Below, piece after piece: positions 9,043-25,433 of a DNA stretch of 32,262 bases. Position numbers and translations under genes: made by a program. Source of the stretch: an uncultured Acidobacteriota bacterium (lineage in GTDB: Bacteria; Acidobacteriota; Thermoanaerobaculia; UBA5066); contig CAIMWE010000212.1 in NCBI GenBank assembly GCA_903845115.1, forward strand, positions 1 to 32,262, given 5' to 3'. The notes under the pieces are model-generated. The model made no database searches, was not told the origin of the DNA, and saw only the letters and a program-made list of their open reading frames with translations. Every line of letters starts with the position of its first letter. Position 1 is the first letter of the stretch.

Positions 9043-10035
<993 letters not shown>

Positions 10036-10109
10036 GGCGGGAGCGGAGGGTAGACCCCCGTGGACCGGAAGCCGTTCTCGCGGGCGGCGCCCCCGATCGT
10101 GCATTCTCC

Positions 10110-10132
10110 CGTTCTCCCGGAACGATTTTCTT
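10110..10132 (+). terminator. possible weak terminator between the KAS-III-like gene and the porin
   Basis: CGTTC (10110-10114) and GAACG (10120-10124) form a 5-bp stem with a 5-base loop, followed by the T-rich ATTTTCTT. The stem is short, so this may instead be a regulatory palindrome. A CATAAT hexamer at 10134-10139 could be a -10 box for the porin gene, but no convincing -35 box precedes it. Confidence 0.3.
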
Positions 10133-10208
10133 CCATAATGCTCCCGTCAACGCCTCGGGCCGTCGCGGTCCCGTTTAACTGCTTTTGAAGGAGGAAAGAG
10201 GAAAGATC

Positions 10209-11504
10209 ATGAAGTCAAGAATCGCAATACTCGTACTCGTCGCCGCATTCGTCGTCGTTCCGGCTCCCGCCGCCTGGGCCCAGCCGACCCTCGGGTTCCA
10301 GGTCGGGTCCCTCACCCAGGTGAACATCATGGGTCTGCTCGCGGTCGGCCTCAAAGGGAGCCAGGTCACGAACACTAACCGCCCGGGGCTGAACACCGAG
10401 ACGAGGCTGGACGACAACACGTCCCGTCTCATCATCTCCAGCTCCTCCAAGATCGCCGACGGCTGGGCCGTGAACTTCGTTCTCGAGAGCCGCTTCTTCG
10501 CTGACAGCCGTCCCGGCGACCCGTTCGTCCCGGGGACCACCATCTACAACACCAACTACGGCTGGGCGGACGGCGACACCTACGGCGCCATCTCCTCGCC
10601 CTTCGGCTCGATGAGCTTCGGCCACACGACCCTCTACTACACCGACACGATCAACGTGGACTACCTCGGCCTCGCCGCCTCCCCCGGAGAGGGTTACCGG
10701 ATCTGGGACGTCAACGGGCTGGGTAGCTTCAACATGCTCGACCAGGTCACGTCCCTGACCAAGACTGGCGTCGGCGCGGGCAGCCTGTTCACGTTCGGCA
10801 ACGGCCGGGCCCGGAACGTCGTGCGCTACAACTCCCCCAACTTCAGCGGCCTCACCTTCTCGCTCGCCTGGACCCCGAACGCCGCCAGCAACGAGCTCCA
10901 GTACATCGCCCCGGACACGCCGGGCTACACGAGGAGCTACACGAACGGCGCGACGCTCTACGGGACGGCCCGCTACAACAAGGGCCCCGTCTCGGCCCAG
11001 CTCAGCTACTACCAGTCCCGCGTCGCCGGCGGCGCCTACAACCCCGCCGCGCAGGCGGGACCCACGGACAACTCGGGCGTCCGCGCCGGTGCCTCGTACA
11101 AGCTGCCGTTCAACCTGAAGATCGGCGTCGTGTGGGACCGCACCCAGTACGACAACTCGGTCTACGCCTCCGCGGCGAGCGCCGTCGCGACCGAGGCCGC
11201 CAAGCGCGACGTCTTCCTCATCCCGGTCTCCTACAGCTGGAAGGACCACGCGTTCTACGTGACCTACTCGATCGCCGGCAACACCTCCTCCGTCGCCAAC
11301 ACGGGGGCCACGCAGCTGAACATCGGCTACGACTACGCGCTGACGAAGCGGGCCTTCGCCGGCCTCTACTACACCTCGATCAAGAACGACTCGTACGGGC
11401 ACTACACGCCCTTCCTTGCCGGCAGCTCCATCGGCCCCACGGCGAACAGCGTGGCCGGGGAGAACTGGTGGCAGTTCGGCGCCAACCTCAACTACTGGTT
11501 CTAG
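10209..11504 (+). CDS. outer-membrane porin (general trimeric porin type)
   Basis: A 431-residue beta-barrel protein. The ATG at 10209 is chosen because it follows GGAGGAAAGAGGAAAG and starts a clean signal peptide (MKSRIAILVLV..., cleavage after AWA at residue 24). The mature protein has alternating hydrophobic strands, many aromatic residues at strand ends (YGWADGDTYGAISSPFGSMSFG, split as YGWADGDTYGAI and SSPFGSMSFG), loops rich in N, S, G and T, and the terminal phenylalanine of an outer-membrane signature (NLNYWF). The SPFGSMSFGHT segment resembles the early strand of neisserial/burkholderial-type porins. It likely lets small, possibly anionic solutes into the periplasm, where the binding protein encoded next could capture them. 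A strong intrinsic terminator follows, so the importer operon may be separately transcribed. Confidence 0.85.
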   Translation: MKSRIAILVLVAAFVVVPAPAAWAQPTLGFQVGSLTQVNIMGLLAVGLKGSQVTNTNRPGLNTETRLDDNTSRLIISSSSKIADGWAVNFVLESRFFADSRPGDPFVPGTTIYNTNYGWADGDTYGAISSPFGSMSFGHTTLYYTDTINVDYLGLAASPGEGYRIWDVNGLGSFNMLDQVTSLTKTGVGAGSLFTFGNGRARNVVRYNSPNFSGLTFSLAWTPNAASNELQYIAPDTPGYTRSYTNGATLYGTARYNKGPVSAQLSYYQSRVAGGAYNPAAQAGPTDNSGVRAGASYKLPFNLKIGVVWDRTQYDNSVYASAASAVATEAAKRDVFLIPVSYSWKDHAFYVTYSIAGNTSSVANTGATQLNIGYDYALTKRAFAGLYYTSIKNDSYGHYTPFLAGSSIGPTANSVAGENWWQFGANLNYWF

Positions 11505-18587: not shown

Positions 18588-19895
18588 TCAGAGGTACCCG
18601 AGGGCCTTCGCCCTGGAGGTCAGCTCGCCCTGGAACTTCGGGTCGGCGACGGCGATCAGGGCCTTCGTGCGCTCTCGGACCGTCCGGCCCCGGAGGAGGG
18701 CGACGCCGTGCTCGGTGACGACGTGGTCGACGTGGGAGCGGTGGAGGGTGACGGCCGACCCCTCCGGGAGCATCGGGACGATGGTGGAGAGGGCGCCGCC
18801 CTTGGCGGTCGAGTAGCAGGCGATGATGCTCTTGCCCAGCCCGTCGAAGCCGGCGACCGCGCCCTGCGCCGTGTCCGACTGGCCGCCGGTCCCCGAGTAC
18901 TGCTGGGCGCCGATCGACTCGCTGGCCACCTGGCCCGTGAAGTCCACGGAGATGCAGGTGTTGACCGAGACCATCCTGGAGTTCTGGGCGACGACGGAGG
19001 GGTTGTTGACCCAGCTGCCGCGCTGGAACTCGACGGCCAGGTTGTCGTCGAGCCAGTCGTAGAACTTCCTGGAGCCCATCGCGAAGGTCGTGACGAACTT
19101 GCCGGGCTTCAGGGCCTTCCTCGCGTTCGTGATGACGCCCAGCTCGTAGAGCTCCATCATGGAGTCCACGAGCATCTCCGTGTGGACGCCGAGGTCCTTC
19201 TTCCCCTTGAGGGCGAGGGCGGCGGCGTTGGGGATCCCCCCGATGCCCAGCTGGATGGTGGAGCCGTCCTCGACCAGGCCGGCGATGTGGGCGCCGATCT
19301 CGAGGTCGGTCGCGTTGGGAACCGGCGCGGGGAGGGCGGGGACCTCCTGGTCGTGCTCCACGAAGTAGTCCACCTTGGAGACGTGGACCTGGGTGTCGCC
19401 GAAGGTCCGCGGGAGGCGCGGGTTCACCTCGAGGACGACGAGCCGGGCGTGGTCGATGATGTCCTTCTCGTACGTGATTCCGAGCGAGAGGGAGACGAAG
19501 CCGTGCTTGTCGGGCGGCGTGCAGGTGCCGAAGAAGATGTCGGGCCGGTGCGCGTGGATGCGGTCGGTGGCCGCGCGGTGGAGCATGTTGGGGACGTAGG
19601 TGACGGTGCCCGTGCCGGCCTTCAGGGCGGCGCGCGAGCCCGGGGCGTGGAACCACGAGGCGAGCTCGAAGTGGCCTTTCATCTCCTTCTTCATGTAGAA
19701 GTCGTATTCCCTCAGCGTGAGGACGGAGAAGACCCTGACGTTCTCGACGCGGTCGCCCATGATGTGGAAGCGCGACATGCAGCCCTGCGGCTCCGAGGCG
19801 CACTGGGCGACGATGACGTCGTCGTCGCTCTTGATGTGGGAGACGGCCTCGTCGATCGCGACCAGCTTGCTGCGGTAGGTGTCCTGGTGGTTCAT
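18588..19895 (-). CDS. acetyl-CoA hydrolase/transferase family CoA-transferase (4-hydroxybutyrate CoA-transferase-like)
   Basis: A 435-residue class I CoA-transferase of the AbfT/Cat2/acetyl-CoA hydrolase family. The N-terminal domain includes YVPNMLHRA and FFGTCTPPDKHGFVSLSLG. The C-terminal domain holds IQLGIGGIPNAAAL, the catalytic glutamate E240 in GVHTEM, and GTGGQSD and ALSTIVPMLPEGSAVT, the CoA-site segments. It moves CoA from acetyl-CoA (or another acyl-CoA) to a small carboxylate through a glutamyl-CoA thioester. The ATG overlaps the TetR stop (ATGA), so enzyme and regulator are made from one message. This suggests that its substrate or product is close to the inducer. 4-Hydroxybutyrate is only the best-known family substrate; the real one may differ. 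Confidence 0.9.
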   Translation of the reverse strand: MNHQDTYRSKLVAIDEAVSHIKSDDDVIVAQCASEPQGCMSRFHIMGDRVENVRVFSVLTLREYDFYMKKEMKGHFELASWFHAPGSRAALKAGTGTVTYVPNMLHRAATDRIHAHRPDIFFGTCTPPDKHGFVSLSLGITYEKDIIDHARLVVLEVNPRLPRTFGDTQVHVSKVDYFVEHDQEVPALPAPVPNATDLEIGAHIAGLVEDGSTIQLGIGGIPNAAALALKGKKDLGVHTEMLVDSMMELYELGVITNARKALKPGKFVTTFAMGSRKFYDWLDDNLAVEFQRGSWVNNPSVVAQNSRMVSVNTCISVDFTGQVASESIGAQQYSGTGGQSDTAQGAVAGFDGLGKSIIACYSTAKGGALSTIVPMLPEGSAVTLHRSHVDHVVTEHGVALLRGRTVRERTKALIAVADPKFQGELTSRAKALGYL

Positions 19896-21076
19896 TTCAT
19901 CTCCTCTTGAGAAAGGTATCCCGAGAGTCCTCGGGCAAGGTAGGTCCCGATGGTCGTGACGAGGGCTCGCGCGTTCACGGGCGACTCGTCGAAGGCGGTC
20001 TCCAGTCCGAAGTAGTGGGCCAGGCCCATGAGGTACTCGACGGCGGTCCCCTCGTCGATCCCGGGGGCGGCGGCCGTGACCCGGAGGTGGGCCGGGCGCT
20101 TCCGGTACCCCGCGGCGAAGGCCCCGTAGTAGTCGCGCACCGCGGCGGGAAGGACGAACTCGGCCTCGCGGACGATGCTGTAGCAGTGCTTGTCGATCGA
20201 GAGGTAGACGAGCCAGAGCCAGAGTCCGCGGAGCTCGAGCTCCAGGGGGTTGAGGGCCGCCGCCCCGGCCGCCAGGTTCCCCGAGATGAAGGCCCGGACG
20301 TCGTGGCCGACCCTCGCGATCAGCTCGGTGTAGAAGGCTTCCTTGGAGTCGAAGTAGGTGTAGAAGGCTCCGACGGAGAGCCGGGCGCCGTCGGTCACCT
20401 CGTGGATGTTGGTCTCGAAGTAGCCCTTCTCCCCGAACAGCCGGCGTCCGGACCGGAGAAGGCGCTCGCGGGCCCCCTCCTCCAGGGCGAGGGGGAGGGG
20501 CGTCGCCGTTCCGCCGAAGACCTTGTCGGGATCGAAGGTGAGGCCGCGGAAGAGGCCGTCGGCGAGAATGTCGCAGGCCGCCTGGAGGTGGGCGGGAGCC
20601 TGGTGAAAGGCCCAGCTGACCGCACAGAACCGGAGTCCGCCGAGTGCGAAGAGGTACTCGGCGAGCCCGATCTCCCGCCCCAGGGCCGCGCCGAGGCTCC
20701 GCGTGTAGGCGGCGACGAGCCGCCGCTCGTACTCGAAGTGGCGGTACTGCCCCTCGCGGAAGACCGAGACGAGGTCGGGGTGCTCCTCGGAGAAGCGGAT
20801 GATCACCCCGGCAAAGCTCCGGAGGCGCTCGCGGGGAGTCTCGCCCTCGACCTGCTCCAGGGCCTCCCGCACCTGGTCGGAGATCCGGCCCAGGATGACC
20901 TTGAAGAGGGCTTCCTTGTTCTCGTAGTAGCGGTAGAAGACGCCGTTGGAGAGGCCGGCCGCGCGGCAGATCTCGGCCACGGAGACCGTTCCGTACCACT
21001 TTTTCGAGAAGAGGCCGACGGCGGCGGCCAGGAGGCGCTCCGCGTTCTCCGGGTTGCCTCGGCCTTCGCTCGTCAT
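19892..21076 (-). CDS. tandem (double) TetR-family transcriptional regulator
   Basis: A 394-residue protein containing two full TetR modules. The first HTH (about residues 10-57) reads AERLLAAAVGLFSKKWYGT then VAEICRAAGLSNGVFYRYYENKE. The second (about 203-250) reads RERLLRSGRRLFGEKGYFET then HEVTDGARLSVGAFYTYFDSKE. Each is followed by a helical ligand domain of 130-145 residues, so it is about twice the usual TetR length. The ATG at 21076 with GGAG ten bases upstream is preferred; a GTG at 21139 lies inside an operator-like element almost at the predicted transcription start. It would act as a repressor on elements near 21123 and 21338, and is coupled to the CoA-transferase gene. TetR proteins beside such enzymes often sense acyl-CoAs, but the ligand is unknown. 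Confidence 0.88.
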   Translation of the reverse strand: MTSEGRGNPENAERLLAAAVGLFSKKWYGTVSVAEICRAAGLSNGVFYRYYENKEALFKVILGRISDQVREALEQVEGETPRERLRSFAGVIIRFSEEHPDLVSVFREGQYRHFEYERRLVAAYTRSLGAALGREIGLAEYLFALGGLRFCAVSWAFHQAPAHLQAACDILADGLFRGLTFDPDKVFGGTATPLPLALEEGARERLLRSGRRLFGEKGYFETNIHEVTDGARLSVGAFYTYFDSKEAFYTELIARVGHDVRAFISGNLAAGAAALNPLELELRGLWLWLVYLSIDKHCYSIVREAEFVLPAAVRDYYGAFAAGYRKRPAHLRVTAAAPGIDEGTAVEYLMGLAHYFGLETAFDESPVNARALVTTIGTYLARGLSGYLSQEEMK

Positions 21077-21105: not shown

Positions 21106-21119
21106 AACAGCGGGTTCCA
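21106..21119 (+). repeat. 14-bp direct repeat, copy 1
   Basis: AACAGCGGGTTCCA occurs here and identically at 21286-21299, in the same orientation. Each copy lies upstream (left) of a 26-bp operator-like element, suggesting that the divergent control region arose by duplication or carries paired sites. Confidence 0.6.
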
Positions 21120-21122
21120 GAA

Positions 21123-21148
21123 AATGAGAAATGATTCACTCCTCACGG
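21123..21148 (+). promoter_or_regulatory. operator-like element, copy 1 (at the TetR promoter start site)
   Basis: A 26-bp element matching copy 2 (21338-21363) at 22 of 26 positions in the same orientation, with shared core GATTCACT and ends AATGAGA and ACGG. Positions 21125-21145 form an imperfect palindrome (8 of 10 half-site matches around a central T). It covers the predicted transcription start (about 21144) of the minus-strand tetR promoter, as expected for autorepression. A second inverted repeat, ATTCAC/GTGAAT (21134-21139 and 21148-21153), overlaps it. Confidence 0.6.
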
Positions 21149-21150
21149 TG

Positions 21151-21179
21151 AATGTAGGCCCTGTCTCTGGCCAAGACAA
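21151..21179 (-). promoter_or_regulatory. predicted promoter of the tandem tetR - CoA-transferase operon
   Basis: Read on the minus strand: TTGTCT (21179-21174), 17-base spacer, TACATT (21156-21151). The predicted start is near 21144, giving a leader of about 68 bases to the ATG at 21076. The operator-like copy 1 begins immediately downstream of the -10 box. Confidence 0.5.
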
Positions 21180-21247
21180 GCCGAAAACTGTCTTTTTCCC
21201 CACCGCCACGCGGATGTCGGACGATTTGCATGAATCGGGGGAAGGAA

Positions 21248-21280
21248 GGGAATCCTGCGATGCCGGACGCCGGGATTCCC
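21248..21280. repeat. inverted repeat in the divergent control region
   Basis: GGGAATCC (21248-21255) and GGATTCCC (21273-21280) are perfect 8-bp arms separated by 17 bases. It lies between the two divergent promoters, and could be another protein-binding site or a hairpin in an unidentified transcript. Confidence 0.45.
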
Positions 21281-21285
21281 TCCGG

Positions 21286-21299
21286 AACAGCGGGTTCCA
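21286..21299 (+). repeat. 14-bp direct repeat, copy 2
   Basis: This is the second exact copy of AACAGCGGGTTCCA (first at 21106). Here it lies about 14 bases upstream of the predicted -35 box of the divergent KAS-III-like gene. Confidence 0.6.
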
Positions 21300-21312
21300 T
21301 CCCATTTTTCCC

Positions 21313-21340
21313 TTGAAGGATCGGCGGTCCGTCCTAGAAT
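21313..21340 (+). promoter_or_regulatory. predicted promoter of the KAS-III-like - hydrolase - thiolase group
   Basis: TTGAAG (21313-21318), 16-base spacer, TAGAAT (21335-21340), with a predicted start near 21347. The operator-like copy 2 (21338-21363) overlaps the end of the -10 box and the start site. Confidence 0.5.
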
Positions 21341-21363
21341 GAGAGACGATTCACTTCTTACGG
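21338..21363 (+). promoter_or_regulatory. operator-like element, copy 2 (at the KAS-III promoter start site)
   Basis: This 26-bp element shares 22 of 26 bases with copy 1 at 21123, including GATTCACT. The internal palindrome is weaker here (6 of 10 half-site matches). It runs from the -10 box into the Shine-Dalgarno GGAGGAG (21362-21368), so a bound protein would block RNA polymerase directly. The tandem TetR protein encoded next door is the obvious candidate ligand. Confidence 0.6.
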
Positions 21364-21373
21364 AGGAGTCGAA

Positions 21374-22387
21374 ATGCACGTAGGCATCATCGGACACGGA
21401 ACCTGGCTTCCCCCGGGCAGGATGACCGCCGCGGACCTCGCGGCCGCGACCGGGATCCCCGAGAACGTCATCGCCCTGAAATTCGGCGTGAAGTCCAAGC
21501 CCGTCGCGGGACCCGGCGAGACCACCGCCTTCATGGGGCTGGCCGCCGCGAGGAAGGCCCTCGACTCGGCGGGGATCGACGGCGCCGCCGTCGACCTGGT
21601 GATCTGGTGCGGGGCCCAGCACAAGGACTATCCCTGCTGGCTCGCGGGGCTCTACGTCTCCGACCAGATCGGGGCGAAGCGTGCCTGGAGCTTCGACATG
21701 GAGGCGATGTGCGGCTCCATGATGGCCGCTCTCGACGTCGCCAAGGCACTCATGTTCACGCACCCGGAGCTCGAGACCGTCCTCCTCGTCTCGGGCTACC
21801 GGAACAACGACCTCATCGACCTCTCGGTCCCCGAGACGCGGTTCATGCTGGACATCGGCTCCGGCGGCTCGGCGGTCGTCCTGAGAAAGAACGCGGGTCG
21901 GAACGCGGTCCTCGCGTCTTCCTTCCGGGGAGACGGGGCGCTCTCCGAGATGTGCATCGTCCCCGCCCTGGGCGCCGGTTCCTGGCCGCCCGCGCCGGAG
22001 GACGTGAAGCGGGCCCACTTCGTCGTGCCCGACGAGGAGGCCTTCAAGAAGAAGCTCGGCGAGGTGACGATGCCGAATTTCTACGCGGTGATCCGCGAGG
22101 CGGTGAAGCTCTCGGGCTGGCCGGAGGGCGGCATCGACTACCTCGCCATCCTCCACTTCAAGAAGAGCGCGCACGACGGGGTCCTCGCGGAGCTGGGCCT
22201 GAAGCCCGAGCAGAGCACCTACCTGGACGACTACGGCCACCTCGGCCAGAACGACCAGGTCCTCTCCCTCGAGCTGGGCCTGAAGTCCGGGAAGATCCAG
22301 GACGGGTCGCGCATCGTGTTCGTGGGGGCGGGCCTCGGCTTCGTCTGGGCCGCCACCGCCATCCAGTGGGGTCCCTGTTCCGAGTAG
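21374..22387 (+). CDS. second KAS-III-like acyltransferase (divergent from the tandem tetR)
   Basis: A 337-residue thiolase-fold enzyme. N-terminal landmarks are IIGHGTWLPPGRMTAAD and VDLVIWCGAQHKDYP; the nucleophile is Cys113 in FDMEAMCGSM. In the C-terminal half, ILHFKKSAHD places His261 at or one residue from the FabH catalytic His. The FabH Asn motif GNTS is replaced by YGHLGQND, with His289 at the Asn position. IVFVGAGLGFVWAATAI is the usual terminal strand. It resembles FabH-like/HMG-CoA-synthase-like acyltransferases that work with CoA substrates. GGAGGAG supports the ATG. It is followed by a hydrolase and a thiolase, and its promoter carries an operator-like element. It is a distant paralogue of the KAS-III-like protein at 9043. 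The exact reaction is unknown. Confidence 0.83.
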   Translation: MHVGIIGHGTWLPPGRMTAADLAAATGIPENVIALKFGVKSKPVAGPGETTAFMGLAAARKALDSAGIDGAAVDLVIWCGAQHKDYPCWLAGLYVSDQIGAKRAWSFDMEAMCGSMMAALDVAKALMFTHPELETVLLVSGYRNNDLIDLSVPETRFMLDIGSGGSAVVLRKNAGRNAVLASSFRGDGALSEMCIVPALGAGSWPPAPEDVKRAHFVVPDEEAFKKKLGEVTMPNFYAVIREAVKLSGWPEGGIDYLAILHFKKSAHDGVLAELGLKPEQSTYLDDYGHLGQNDQVLSLELGLKSGKIQDGSRIVFVGAGLGFVWAATAIQWGPCSE

Positions 22388-22420: not shown

Positions 22421-23344
22421 ATGTCGACAGGGTGGATCGCCGGGAGCGTGGTTCTCGCGCTGTTGGTCGCCGGTGGTCTCTTCATGGGGTGGCTGTTCGC
22501 CAAGCGTCCGCTCGAGGTCTGGGAGTGGGGAACGCGGCGGGCGCTCCTCCGCGCCGGCCTGAAGAAGACCGTCGTCCAGGCGCCCGTGGGGCCCCAGACG
22601 GTCTTCGTGGGGGGATCGGGTCCGGTCCTGGTCCTCCTGCACGGGGCGGGGCACCAGGCGGGGACCTGGGCCCAGGTGGCTCCGGCCCTGGCAAAGCGGT
22701 ACACGCTGGTGATTCCCGACCTCGCCGGTCACGGAGGGAGCGCCCCGTCCGCGGGCCCGATCCAGGTTTCCGACGTGTTCGGCGCCCTCGAGGCGGTGAT
22801 CAGGGCCACGGCCGGGGAGAACCGGGTGCGGGTCGTGGGCAACTCCATGGGGGGCTGGATGGCCATGGTCCTCGGGGCGCGGCACCCCGAGTGGGTGGAG
22901 CGGGTCGTCGCCGTCAACGGCGGCTCCCCGCAAGGCGCGAGCCCCGGCGTGAGCCTGTTTCCCAGGACGCGGGAGGAGGCGCGGAGATCGATGGCCCAGA
23001 CCAGGGACGCCGGAAGCCCGGCCGTTCCCGACAACGTCCTGGACGACCTGGTGCGGCAGATCGGAGCCGGTCCGCTCGCCCGCCTCGCGGCCGCGGCGGC
23101 CGGCATGGGGGCCTGGCTCCTCGGCGACGAGCAGCTCCAGGCGATGAAGGTGCCGGTGCGGCTGGTCTGGGGGGTCTCCGATCAGCTGATGACGATGGAC
23201 TACGCCAGGCGCATGGCGGAGCTCCTCCCGGACGCCCAGCTCATCCCGGTCGAGCGGTGCGGTCACATTCCCCAGCAGGAGGCCCCGGAGCGGTTCGCGA
23301 TCGCCCTCTCCCGGGCGCTCGGCGAGGCCCCGCCGGCCAGGTGA
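22421..23344 (+). CDS. membrane-anchored alpha/beta hydrolase
   Basis: A 307-residue alpha/beta-hydrolase with an N-terminal hydrophobic anchor (residues 5-28) and no obvious signal-peptidase site, so it is probably tethered to the inner membrane. Catalytic landmarks are LHGAGHQAGTW (oxyanion, from residue 73), nucleophile Ser142 in GNSMGG, probable acid Asp254 (WGVSDQL) and base His282 (CGHIPQQE). IPDLAGHGGS is the usual strand-4 motif. GGGAGG precedes the ATG by eight bases. It lies 33 bases after the KAS-III-like gene and about 115 before the thiolase. Anchoring could place it in the periplasm or at the inner face; the arginines following the segment (LFAKRP) do not settle this. The substrate is unknown: a thioester, ester or C-C bond is possible. 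Confidence 0.85.
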   Translation: MSTGWIAGSVVLALLVAGGLFMGWLFAKRPLEVWEWGTRRALLRAGLKKTVVQAPVGPQTVFVGGSGPVLVLLHGAGHQAGTWAQVAPALAKRYTLVIPDLAGHGGSAPSAGPIQVSDVFGALEAVIRATAGENRVRVVGNSMGGWMAMVLGARHPEWVERVVAVNGGSPQGASPGVSLFPRTREEARRSMAQTRDAGSPAVPDNVLDDLVRQIGAGPLARLAAAAAGMGAWLLGDEQLQAMKVPVRLVWGVSDQLMTMDYARRMAELLPDAQLIPVERCGHIPQQEAPERFAIALSRALGEAPPAR

Positions 23345-23460: not shown

Positions 23461-24669
23461 ATGCTCGAGAAGATCTACGTCGCCGCGTACCAGCAGTCGA
23501 AGTTCGGGAAGCTGATGGGGATGACGGTCCCCGGGATCGTCGATACGGCCGTCCGCGAGACCTTCTCCTCGATCCAGGCCGACCCGGCGCTCGCCGACGT
23601 CGCGTCGATCGGGGCTTGCACGAACATCGCCCTCCACCAGCAGGGGCTCCTCGCCGGCCTCGTGGCGATGACGCCGGGGCTCTCCGGCAAGCCGATCGAG
23701 ACGGTGGAGAACGCCTGCGCCACCGGGGGGCAGGCGATCCTGTCGGTGGTCCGCAAGCTCCTCCTGGGCGAGGGGGAGGTGGGGCTGGCGGTCGGCTTCG
23801 AGAAGATGCGCGACGCCGAGGGAAAGGTGGACGGGGCGCTGATCGGGAAGGCGCTCACCTGCTACACCCACCCCGACGAGCGGATCGGGAAGCTCTCCGT
23901 CGTCCCGCACCTCTTCGCCGAGGTGATGGAGGCCTACATGAAGGCCTACGGCGTGACGGAGCGAGACCTGGCCGCCGTCGCCGTCCAGGAGTACGCGAAC
24001 GCCCGCTCGAACCCCTTCGCCCAGATGCAGAAGAACGACGTGACGCTGGAGAAGGCCCTCGCGATCGAGGGGATCAACCGGTACGTCGTCGACGGCCTCC
24101 CCCTCAAGACGTACGACTGCTCCCAGATCACCGACGGCTGGGCGGGGATCGTCCTGGCGACGGAAGAGGGGCTCTCGCGCCTCGGGGTAGCCAGGAAGGA
24201 CGCGGTCCTCCTCGCGGGCTACGGCCAGGCGACCGACCCGCTGAAGAAGGCGGGACGCGACGTTCTGAAGCCCGCGGGGGCGCTCGAGGCGATGCGGAAG
24301 GCCTACGCGATGGCGGACCTCTGCCCCGATTCGGTCGACGTCGCCGAGGTCCACGACTGCTTCACCGTCATGGGGGCGATGGGCGCCGAGGTGATCGGAA
24401 AGGCCGACTTCGGCGAGGGAGCGCGCTACTGGGTGGAGGGGAAGGCCGCGCCGGGCGGGGAGTGCGGGATCAACACGTCGGGCGGGCTGATCGCCAAGGG
24501 GCACCCGATCGGCGCGACCGGGATCTCGATGGTCGGCTGGTGCGCGTGGCAGCTCCTGGGGAAGGCGCCGGCGCCGCTCCAGGTGAAGAGCGCCCGGGCC
24601 GCCGCCACCTTCAACATCGGCGGGCCGATCTGCGCCTCGGTCTGCACGGTCCTGACCCCCGGGGCCTGA
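23461..24669 (+). CDS. thiolase of the SCP2/sterol-carrier type (acetyl-CoA acetyltransferase-like)
   Basis: A 402-residue thiolase. Active-site landmarks are Cys86 in ENACATGG, His298 in EVHDCF and His348 in GLIAKGHPIGATG. The HDCF motif is typical of the SCP2-thiolase branch, as is the single-domain length with no fused sterol-carrier module. The C-terminal loop usually carrying the second catalytic Cys reads GGPICASVC, with Cys391 and Cys395. Branch members cleave or form 3-oxoacyl-CoAs, and relatives such as PhlC form complexes with a KAS-III-like partner. No DUF35/OB-fold partner gene, common beside such thiolases, is visible. GGAGGAGG precedes the ATG. It is probably co-transcribed with the two upstream genes despite a 116-base gap, in which I find no terminator. 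Confidence 0.9.
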   Translation: MLEKIYVAAYQQSKFGKLMGMTVPGIVDTAVRETFSSIQADPALADVASIGACTNIALHQQGLLAGLVAMTPGLSGKPIETVENACATGGQAILSVVRKLLLGEGEVGLAVGFEKMRDAEGKVDGALIGKALTCYTHPDERIGKLSVVPHLFAEVMEAYMKAYGVTERDLAAVAVQEYANARSNPFAQMQKNDVTLEKALAIEGINRYVVDGLPLKTYDCSQITDGWAGIVLATEEGLSRLGVARKDAVLLAGYGQATDPLKKAGRDVLKPAGALEAMRKAYAMADLCPDSVDVAEVHDCFTVMGAMGAEVIGKADFGEGARYWVEGKAAPGGECGINTSGGLIAKGHPIGATGISMVGWCAWQLLGKAPAPLQVKSARAAATFNIGGPICASVCTVLTPGA

Positions 24670-24758: not shown

Positions 24759-25385
24759 TCAGGGGTCGGGCTGGAGCATGCCGGATCGCAGGACCGTGGC
24801 GATCTCGGTGATCGCCGACGGGGTCCCCTTCCCCATCTGGTCGGGGACGCCGAAGAGGACCTCCACCGCGAAGTACTGCAGGAAGGTCCGGCTCGCCAGC
24901 ATCACCGCCGTCGTGGGGTCGACCCCGGGTGCGAGCTGCTCCTCCAGCGAACCCGACGGGAACTTCTTCCTGAGGAAGCTCGCGAAGCGGTTCGACATCT
25001 CGGAGTAGAACTTCCGGATGTGGGTGCCTTCGAACTCCACGACGTCGACGTAGATGAGGGCGACGTAGTGACGATACTCCCGGACGCTCTCCTCCGCGGC
25101 CCGGGCCAGCGCCTCGAGGTCGTTCGGGAAGGCCCCGGCCGCGAGCGCCCGGTTGAAGGGGAAGTCGGGACTGTCGATGGCGGCCCAGTACTGGTCCAGG
25201 AGGGTCCGGAAGAGGGCCTCCTTGTCGGGAAAGTGGTGGTAGACGTTCCCGGTGGAGATGCCCGCTTCCTCGGCGATCTCCCGGATGCTGGTTCCACGGT
25301 ACCCCTGCTTCGAGAAGAGCCGGAGGGCGGTCTCCAGGATCGCGGCGCGGCTTCGCTCCGACTTCTCGCCCTGCTTGAGTTTCAA
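24759..25385 (-). CDS. TetR-family transcriptional regulator
   Basis: A 208-residue regulator of normal TetR length. The HTH (about residues 12-58) includes AAILETALRLFSKQGYRGTS, REIAEEAGISTGNVYHHFPD and KEALF; the remainder is a helical ligand domain. The TTG at 25385 is chosen because GGGGG lies nine bases upstream and a promoter reads into it. A TTG at 25433 is part of the promoter's -35 box and has no Shine-Dalgarno. The gene is convergent with the thiolase gene and divergent from proS. It may control part of the acyl-CoA region, perhaps the palindrome at 9012, but no matching site beside its own promoter was found. Confidence 0.88.
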   Translation of the reverse strand: MKLKQGEKSERSRAAILETALRLFSKQGYRGTSIREIAEEAGISTGNVYHHFPDKEALFRTLLDQYWAAIDSPDFPFNRALAAGAFPNDLEALARAAEESVREYRHYVALIYVDVVEFEGTHIRKFYSEMSNRFASFLRKKFPSGSLEEQLAPGVDPTTAVMLASRTFLQYFAVEVLFGVPDQMGKGTPSAITEIATVLRSGMLQPDP

Positions 25386-25404
25386 TTTCGAGAGCCCCCG
25401 GGGG

Positions 25405-25433
25405 AGCCTAAAGGGCGCCGGAGGCGGGGTCAA
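25405..25433 (-). promoter_or_regulatory. predicted promoter of the single-module tetR gene
   Basis: Read on the minus strand: TTGACC (25433-25428), 17-base spacer, TAGGCT (25410-25405). Transcription would start near 25398, leaving a very short leader before the TTG at 25385. The leader contains the palindrome CCCCCGGGGG (25395-25404). Confidence 0.5.

Follow-up and report, generated by a model that had tools for sequence, protein, structure and literature searches.

A conserved pair of putative operators between divergent acyl-CoA genes of an Acidobacteriota bacterium and its probable recognition by the adjacent double-TetR regulator

The window analyzed in this work, i.e. the whole stretch of 32,262 nucleotides of contig CAIMWE010000212.1 from an uncultured Acidobacteriota bacterium, contains two divergently oriented gene groups. 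The minus-strand group comprises the gene of a double (tandem) TetR regulator and a CoA-transferase gene, which are presumed to form one operon, while the opposing plus-strand group begins with a KAS-III-like gene. The gap between the start codon of tetR (21076) and that of the KAS-III gene (21374) is 297 bp long and harbors two similar elements and two predicted promoters. The features of the locus are as follows:

18588..19895, minus strand: CoA-transferase gene, butyryl-CoA:acetate CoA-transferase-like (Pfam AcetylCoA_hyd_C), overlapping the end of tetR (ATGA)
19892..21076, minus strand: double (tandem) TetR regulator, 394 aa, two Pfam TetR_N domains, presumed binder of both operators
21124..21146, plus strand: operator A (putative), ATGAGAAATGATTCACTCCTCAC, just downstream of the tetR promoter -10 box
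21151..21179, minus strand: predicted tetR promoter, TTGTCT-17-TACATT
21313..21340, plus strand: predicted KAS-III promoter, TTGAAG-16-TAGAAT
21339..21361, plus strand: operator B (putative), ATGAGAGACGATTCACTTCTTAC, overlapping the end of the KAS-III promoter -10 box
21374..22387, plus strand: KAS-III-like gene, first of the opposing group (NCBIfam PRK06840 equivalog, 425 bits against a cut-off of 315)
22421..23344, plus strand: alpha/beta hydrolase gene (Pfam Abhydrolase_6)
23461..24669, plus strand: thiolase-like gene of the Thiolase_C_1 type (Pfam)
24759-25433: single TetR-family gene (Pfam), 3 kb away

The elements at 21123-21148 and 21338-21363 agree at 22 of 26 positions, as stated in an earlier, sequence-only reading of this DNA. 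When the 297-bp region was shuffled 2,000 times with its dinucleotides preserved, the top pair of 26-mers matched on average at 16 positions and never at more than 20, and a chance match of the two elements is thereby excluded. The same reading described a 21-bp imperfect palindrome in each element. Comparison of this stretch with its own reverse complement yields 16/21 matches for copy 1 and 12/21 for copy 2, hence the label "palindrome" suits the former and fits the latter, like the asymmetric operator as a whole, only poorly. On the basis of the alignment of relatives and of a held-out weight matrix (both described below), we redefined the element as the 23-mer GTGAGAGnTGATTCAnnTCTcAC, which occupies positions 21124-21146 and 21339-21361. 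The exact 14-bp repeat AACAGCGGGTTCCA, which had been reported to accompany each copy, does exist (21106-21119 and 21286-21299) and is unique to these positions in the genome, even if one mismatch is allowed; however, it is not conserved even in the same-genus relative, and the distance from its start to the element that follows is 17 bp in one case and 52 bp in the other. Being unconserved and out of register with the elements, it was rejected as a part of the operator, and perhaps represents a small recent local duplication.

The elements had also been placed on two divergent promoters. This holds well for the plus strand, where the promoter scanner reports a match of 9/12. The minus-strand promoter (8/12) falls under the scanner threshold and is weak in the source genome, but its position and hexamers are kept in the relatives, in which the minus-side promoter attains a mean score of 8.9, compared to 5.5 in shuffled sequence; it is this comparison that makes it credible. 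The -10 box ends 4 bp ahead of operator A on one side and 2 bp within operator B on the other, so a protein bound to the elements would cover both start points.

Its relatives assign the window to an acidobacterium of the Holophagae type. A scan of contigs with the KAS-III protein as a query yielded 80 loci, mostly from Holophagae, Spirochaetota and Thermotogota, and the element was found to be present twice in the DNA upstream of the KAS-III relatives. In the set of 56 loci with the divergent layout (from Holophagae and Spirochaetota, the window included), and with a site threshold of 20 that was reached by no third-best match, the KAS-side site (operator B) is present in all 56 and the TetR-side site (operator A) in 55; in the single exception (L068) the TetR-side copy is still recognizable, with a score of 19.5. 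The operators are 65-87% identical to the window in six aligned relatives, and the remainder of the gap 36-55%. A weight matrix trained exclusively on loci from outside Holophagae and then run on the window recovers operator B with 37.4 bits and operator A with 35.0 bits, with the next match at 3.6. In Thermotogota the arrangement is different: the regulator lies downstream of KAS-III and is co-directional with it, and two head-to-tail sites, 25 or 19 bp apart, precede the KAS-III gene. Conservation in relatives that retain the genes, on which the sequence-only reading had staked its claim, is thus observed, with both elements on the divergent promoters in dozens of species.

The sites are also specific at the genomic scale. 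The 5.8-Mb genome contains the pattern TGAGANNYGATTCA at two places, both of them in the divergent gap, and the controls gave no matches, while the stricter TGAGAGNYGATTCA occurs 0-2 times per genome in ten other genomes and never in controls. Two matches to a relaxed pattern (C25 and C157), considered as extra sites in the genome, were discarded, since their scores of 10.6 and 11.6 bits are far under those of the true sites. Sites are also present ahead of other genes in relatives: in three spirochaete loci where KAS-III follows branched-chain-type transporter genes, the sites lie ahead of the first transporter gene; in one genome (L090) there are further sites ahead of acyl-CoA ligase and thiolase genes, and in another locus (L045) a site precedes an alpha/beta hydrolase gene. 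Geothrix fermentans carries the regulator and both sites (L048), and at a distance of 12 kb from this main locus a single additional site precedes a short-chain dehydrogenase gene. At about 1240-1520 of the corresponding region (L147) an operator and an apparently decayed KAS-III start are fused upstream of the dehydrogenase gene, an arrangement with the appearance of a duplicated control region.

The tandem TetR gene adjoins the sites in practically all loci that bear them, and all held-out Holophagae-type loci with a tandem TetR have two sites of at least 22 bits. On the other hand, in six Geothrix-type genomes the CoA-transferase and KAS-III genes are adjacent, yet a full-length tandem TetR was found nowhere in the genomes, and no sites were found in these loci, where the best match reaches 15 bits and most stay below 11. 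As these regulator-less genomes form one related group, the joint absence may reflect a single event. The co-occurrence of sites and tandem TetR supports the earlier proposal, in which one regulator would control its own operon and the opposing KAS-III/hydrolase/thiolase group. In comparative terms, its recurrence in three phyla and its absence from the genomes that lack the regulator mark the site pair as a genuine gene switch, albeit of a fairly conventional kind. Two tandem-TetR genes of the same family lie within a 4-kb stretch of one spirochaete locus (L095:7057-8193 and 9414-10538).

The operator is composed of a strict arm TGAGAG, a fixed center TGATTCA and a loose arm nnTCTcAC. Since the first scoring of the sites weighted the left arm, the asymmetry was rescored with symmetric weights: of the 6 positions per arm, 5.7 match in the left arm (TGAGAG) and 3.1 in the right one, and the right arm is the stronger one in no site. 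Of the 112 sites, 106 have T as the central base. In the divergent loci both sites share the same orientation although the promoters oppose each other, which makes promoter overlap an unlikely cause of the asymmetry; in L095 and L110 the two sites of a pair are oriented in opposite directions, so that a common orientation is a trait of the divergent layout rather than a law. In the regulator, the N-terminal recognition helix (SNGxFYR) shows almost no variation; in its C-terminal counterpart three positions are variable. An asymmetric operator suits one chain with two different heads, and the N-terminal head would probably be the one that reads the strict arm.

The layout with two TetR domains, which in the regulator are unlike each other, is common to 58 aligned relatives, down to 27% identity. 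The regulator was modeled by AlphaFold with a pLDDT of 92.3 and a pTM of 0.90, and its top match in the PDB by both sequence and structure is Mce3R of M. tuberculosis (9b7y). The sequence match covers two stretches (phmmer E 1.6e-16), and the structural match spans 345 residues (VIA Z 23.9, rmsd 5.7), compared to Z of 17.6 for the best single-domain TetR. Mce3R is a single-chain pseudo-dimer whose two heads, unlike each other, occupy an asymmetric site; in the Mce3R control region there are two 25-bp sites, the second of which raises the affinity, and a dimer of Mce3R was observed on two duplexes (PMC11667970). The regulator described here shares with it the presence of two TetR DNA-binding domains in one polypeptide of about 400 residues, the full-length structural match, a predicted single-chain pseudo-dimer fold, asymmetric sites of about 25 bp, two of them in a divergent control region, and targets related to lipids or acyl-CoA, presumably along with autoregulation. 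By motif, Arg49 aligns with Arg53, the residue that Mce3R needs for binding, according to our reading of the sequences. However, the regulator does not appear to be an Mce3R orthologue, as the structural alignments show only 16-19% identity, the targets are KAS-III and CoA-transferase genes instead of the mce3 operon context, and the phyla are different; with an identity to Mce3R as low as 16%, the single-chain mode must be regarded as a prediction. Besides, while the Mce3R sites are described as non-palindromic, the site analyzed here retains the frame of a palindrome, of which one arm is strict and the other loose. Single-domain repressors of the FadR type, such as SaFadR (6en8) and B. subtilis FadR (3whb), share the TetR fold and acyl-CoA related targets and resemble the C-terminal half of our regulator, which differs from them in being double. 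The site of Bacillus FadR is a TGAATGA-type palindrome and differs from the operator found here.

We therefore consider it very probable, judging from the comparative data, that the two elements are paired operators of the adjacent double-TetR regulator, by which a short-chain acyl-CoA gene group and the regulator's own operon would be controlled. One regulator chain, probably folded as a single-chain pseudo-dimer with two different helix-turn-helix heads, would cover one site; occupation of operator A would block the start of the operon of tetR and the CoA-transferase, and occupation of operator B the KAS-III, hydrolase and thiolase genes. The regulator would probably be released by a short-chain acid or CoA ester, a ligand suggested by the identity of the target genes only. 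That the control involves repression rather than activation, plus autoregulation, we infer by analogy with TetR repressors and Mce3R.

It is tempting to consider a further possibility, in which one double-TetR dimer holds both sites and loops the DNA between them, repressing both promoters together. The Mce3R dimer bound to two duplexes, the gain in affinity from its second site and the nearly universal presence of two sites per control region agree with such an arrangement, as do the spacings of the sites, for which a period of 10.5 to 10.75 bp is the best among 6-16 bp at every level of dereplication. However, the corresponding R declines from 0.57 to 0.41, at which level a period of 6.0 bp does equally well, p is 0.18 when the period is left free in the strictest test, and the differences between nearest neighbors are hardly phased; the signal is weakened by the kinship of the loci, and independent loci added only two usable spacings, 174 and 242 bp. 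Moreover, the spacing ranges from 105 to 539 bp (226 bp in L062), a distance of 19-25 bp, as in Thermotogota, is too short for a loop, and two promoters need two sites anyway. We thus regard looping as a tentative possibility, less likely than not, and its specific version, in which the dimer bridges two equally oriented asymmetric operators in helical phase and so controls both divergent promoters at once, as slightly less likely still.

Two other explanations fare considerably worse. Since copy A is fairly palindromic and another TetR-family gene (24759-25433) is located 3 kb away, one might think of a classical homodimer-type palindrome bound by a regulator other than the tandem TetR, such as the product of that gene. 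Nonetheless, one arm of the sites is consistently weak and the two TetR domains of the presumed binder are unlike each other, in disagreement with a classical homodimer on a palindromic operator; the tandem TetR is the neighbor in practically every site-bearing locus, and genomes whose TetR-like genes do not include the tandem one are devoid of sites, so we find this explanation very unlikely. Even less credible, to the point of being nearly negligible, is the idea that the elements work at the RNA level, each transcript carrying one of them as a hairpin at its 5' end: the strand of operator A does fold (-9.1 kcal/mol, z -2.7), but operator B does not (z +0.6), no match to Rfam was obtained, and in many loci the stem would be disrupted by the loose arm.

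To our knowledge, few operators of double-TetR proteins have been described, and Mce3R is the only structure that we found. Comparison across genomes gives solid grounds for counting the present system, whose operator pair is well defined, among those of the double-TetR proteins. The locus supplies an explicit putative operator together with its presumed regulator and a set of target genes in three phyla, for which natural losses serve as a control, and makes testable both the reading of asymmetric DNA by one two-headed chain and looping by double-TetR proteins; if the latter were true, it would constitute a looping TetR system conserved over phyla.

The operators also mark the genes of an uncharacterized KAS-III/CoA-transferase/thiolase pathway. 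A search of the literature library for PRK06840 returned nothing. The active-site Asn motif of FabH is YGN, and the KAS-III-like protein (21374-22387) reads YGHLGQN, so its active site may differ from that of ordinary KAS-III. In most spirochaete loci (several among L053-L096) the tandem TetR and CoA-transferase genes flank another KAS-III-like gene, which is only distantly related (about 25% identity), hinting that two KAS-III-like proteins may act in one pathway.
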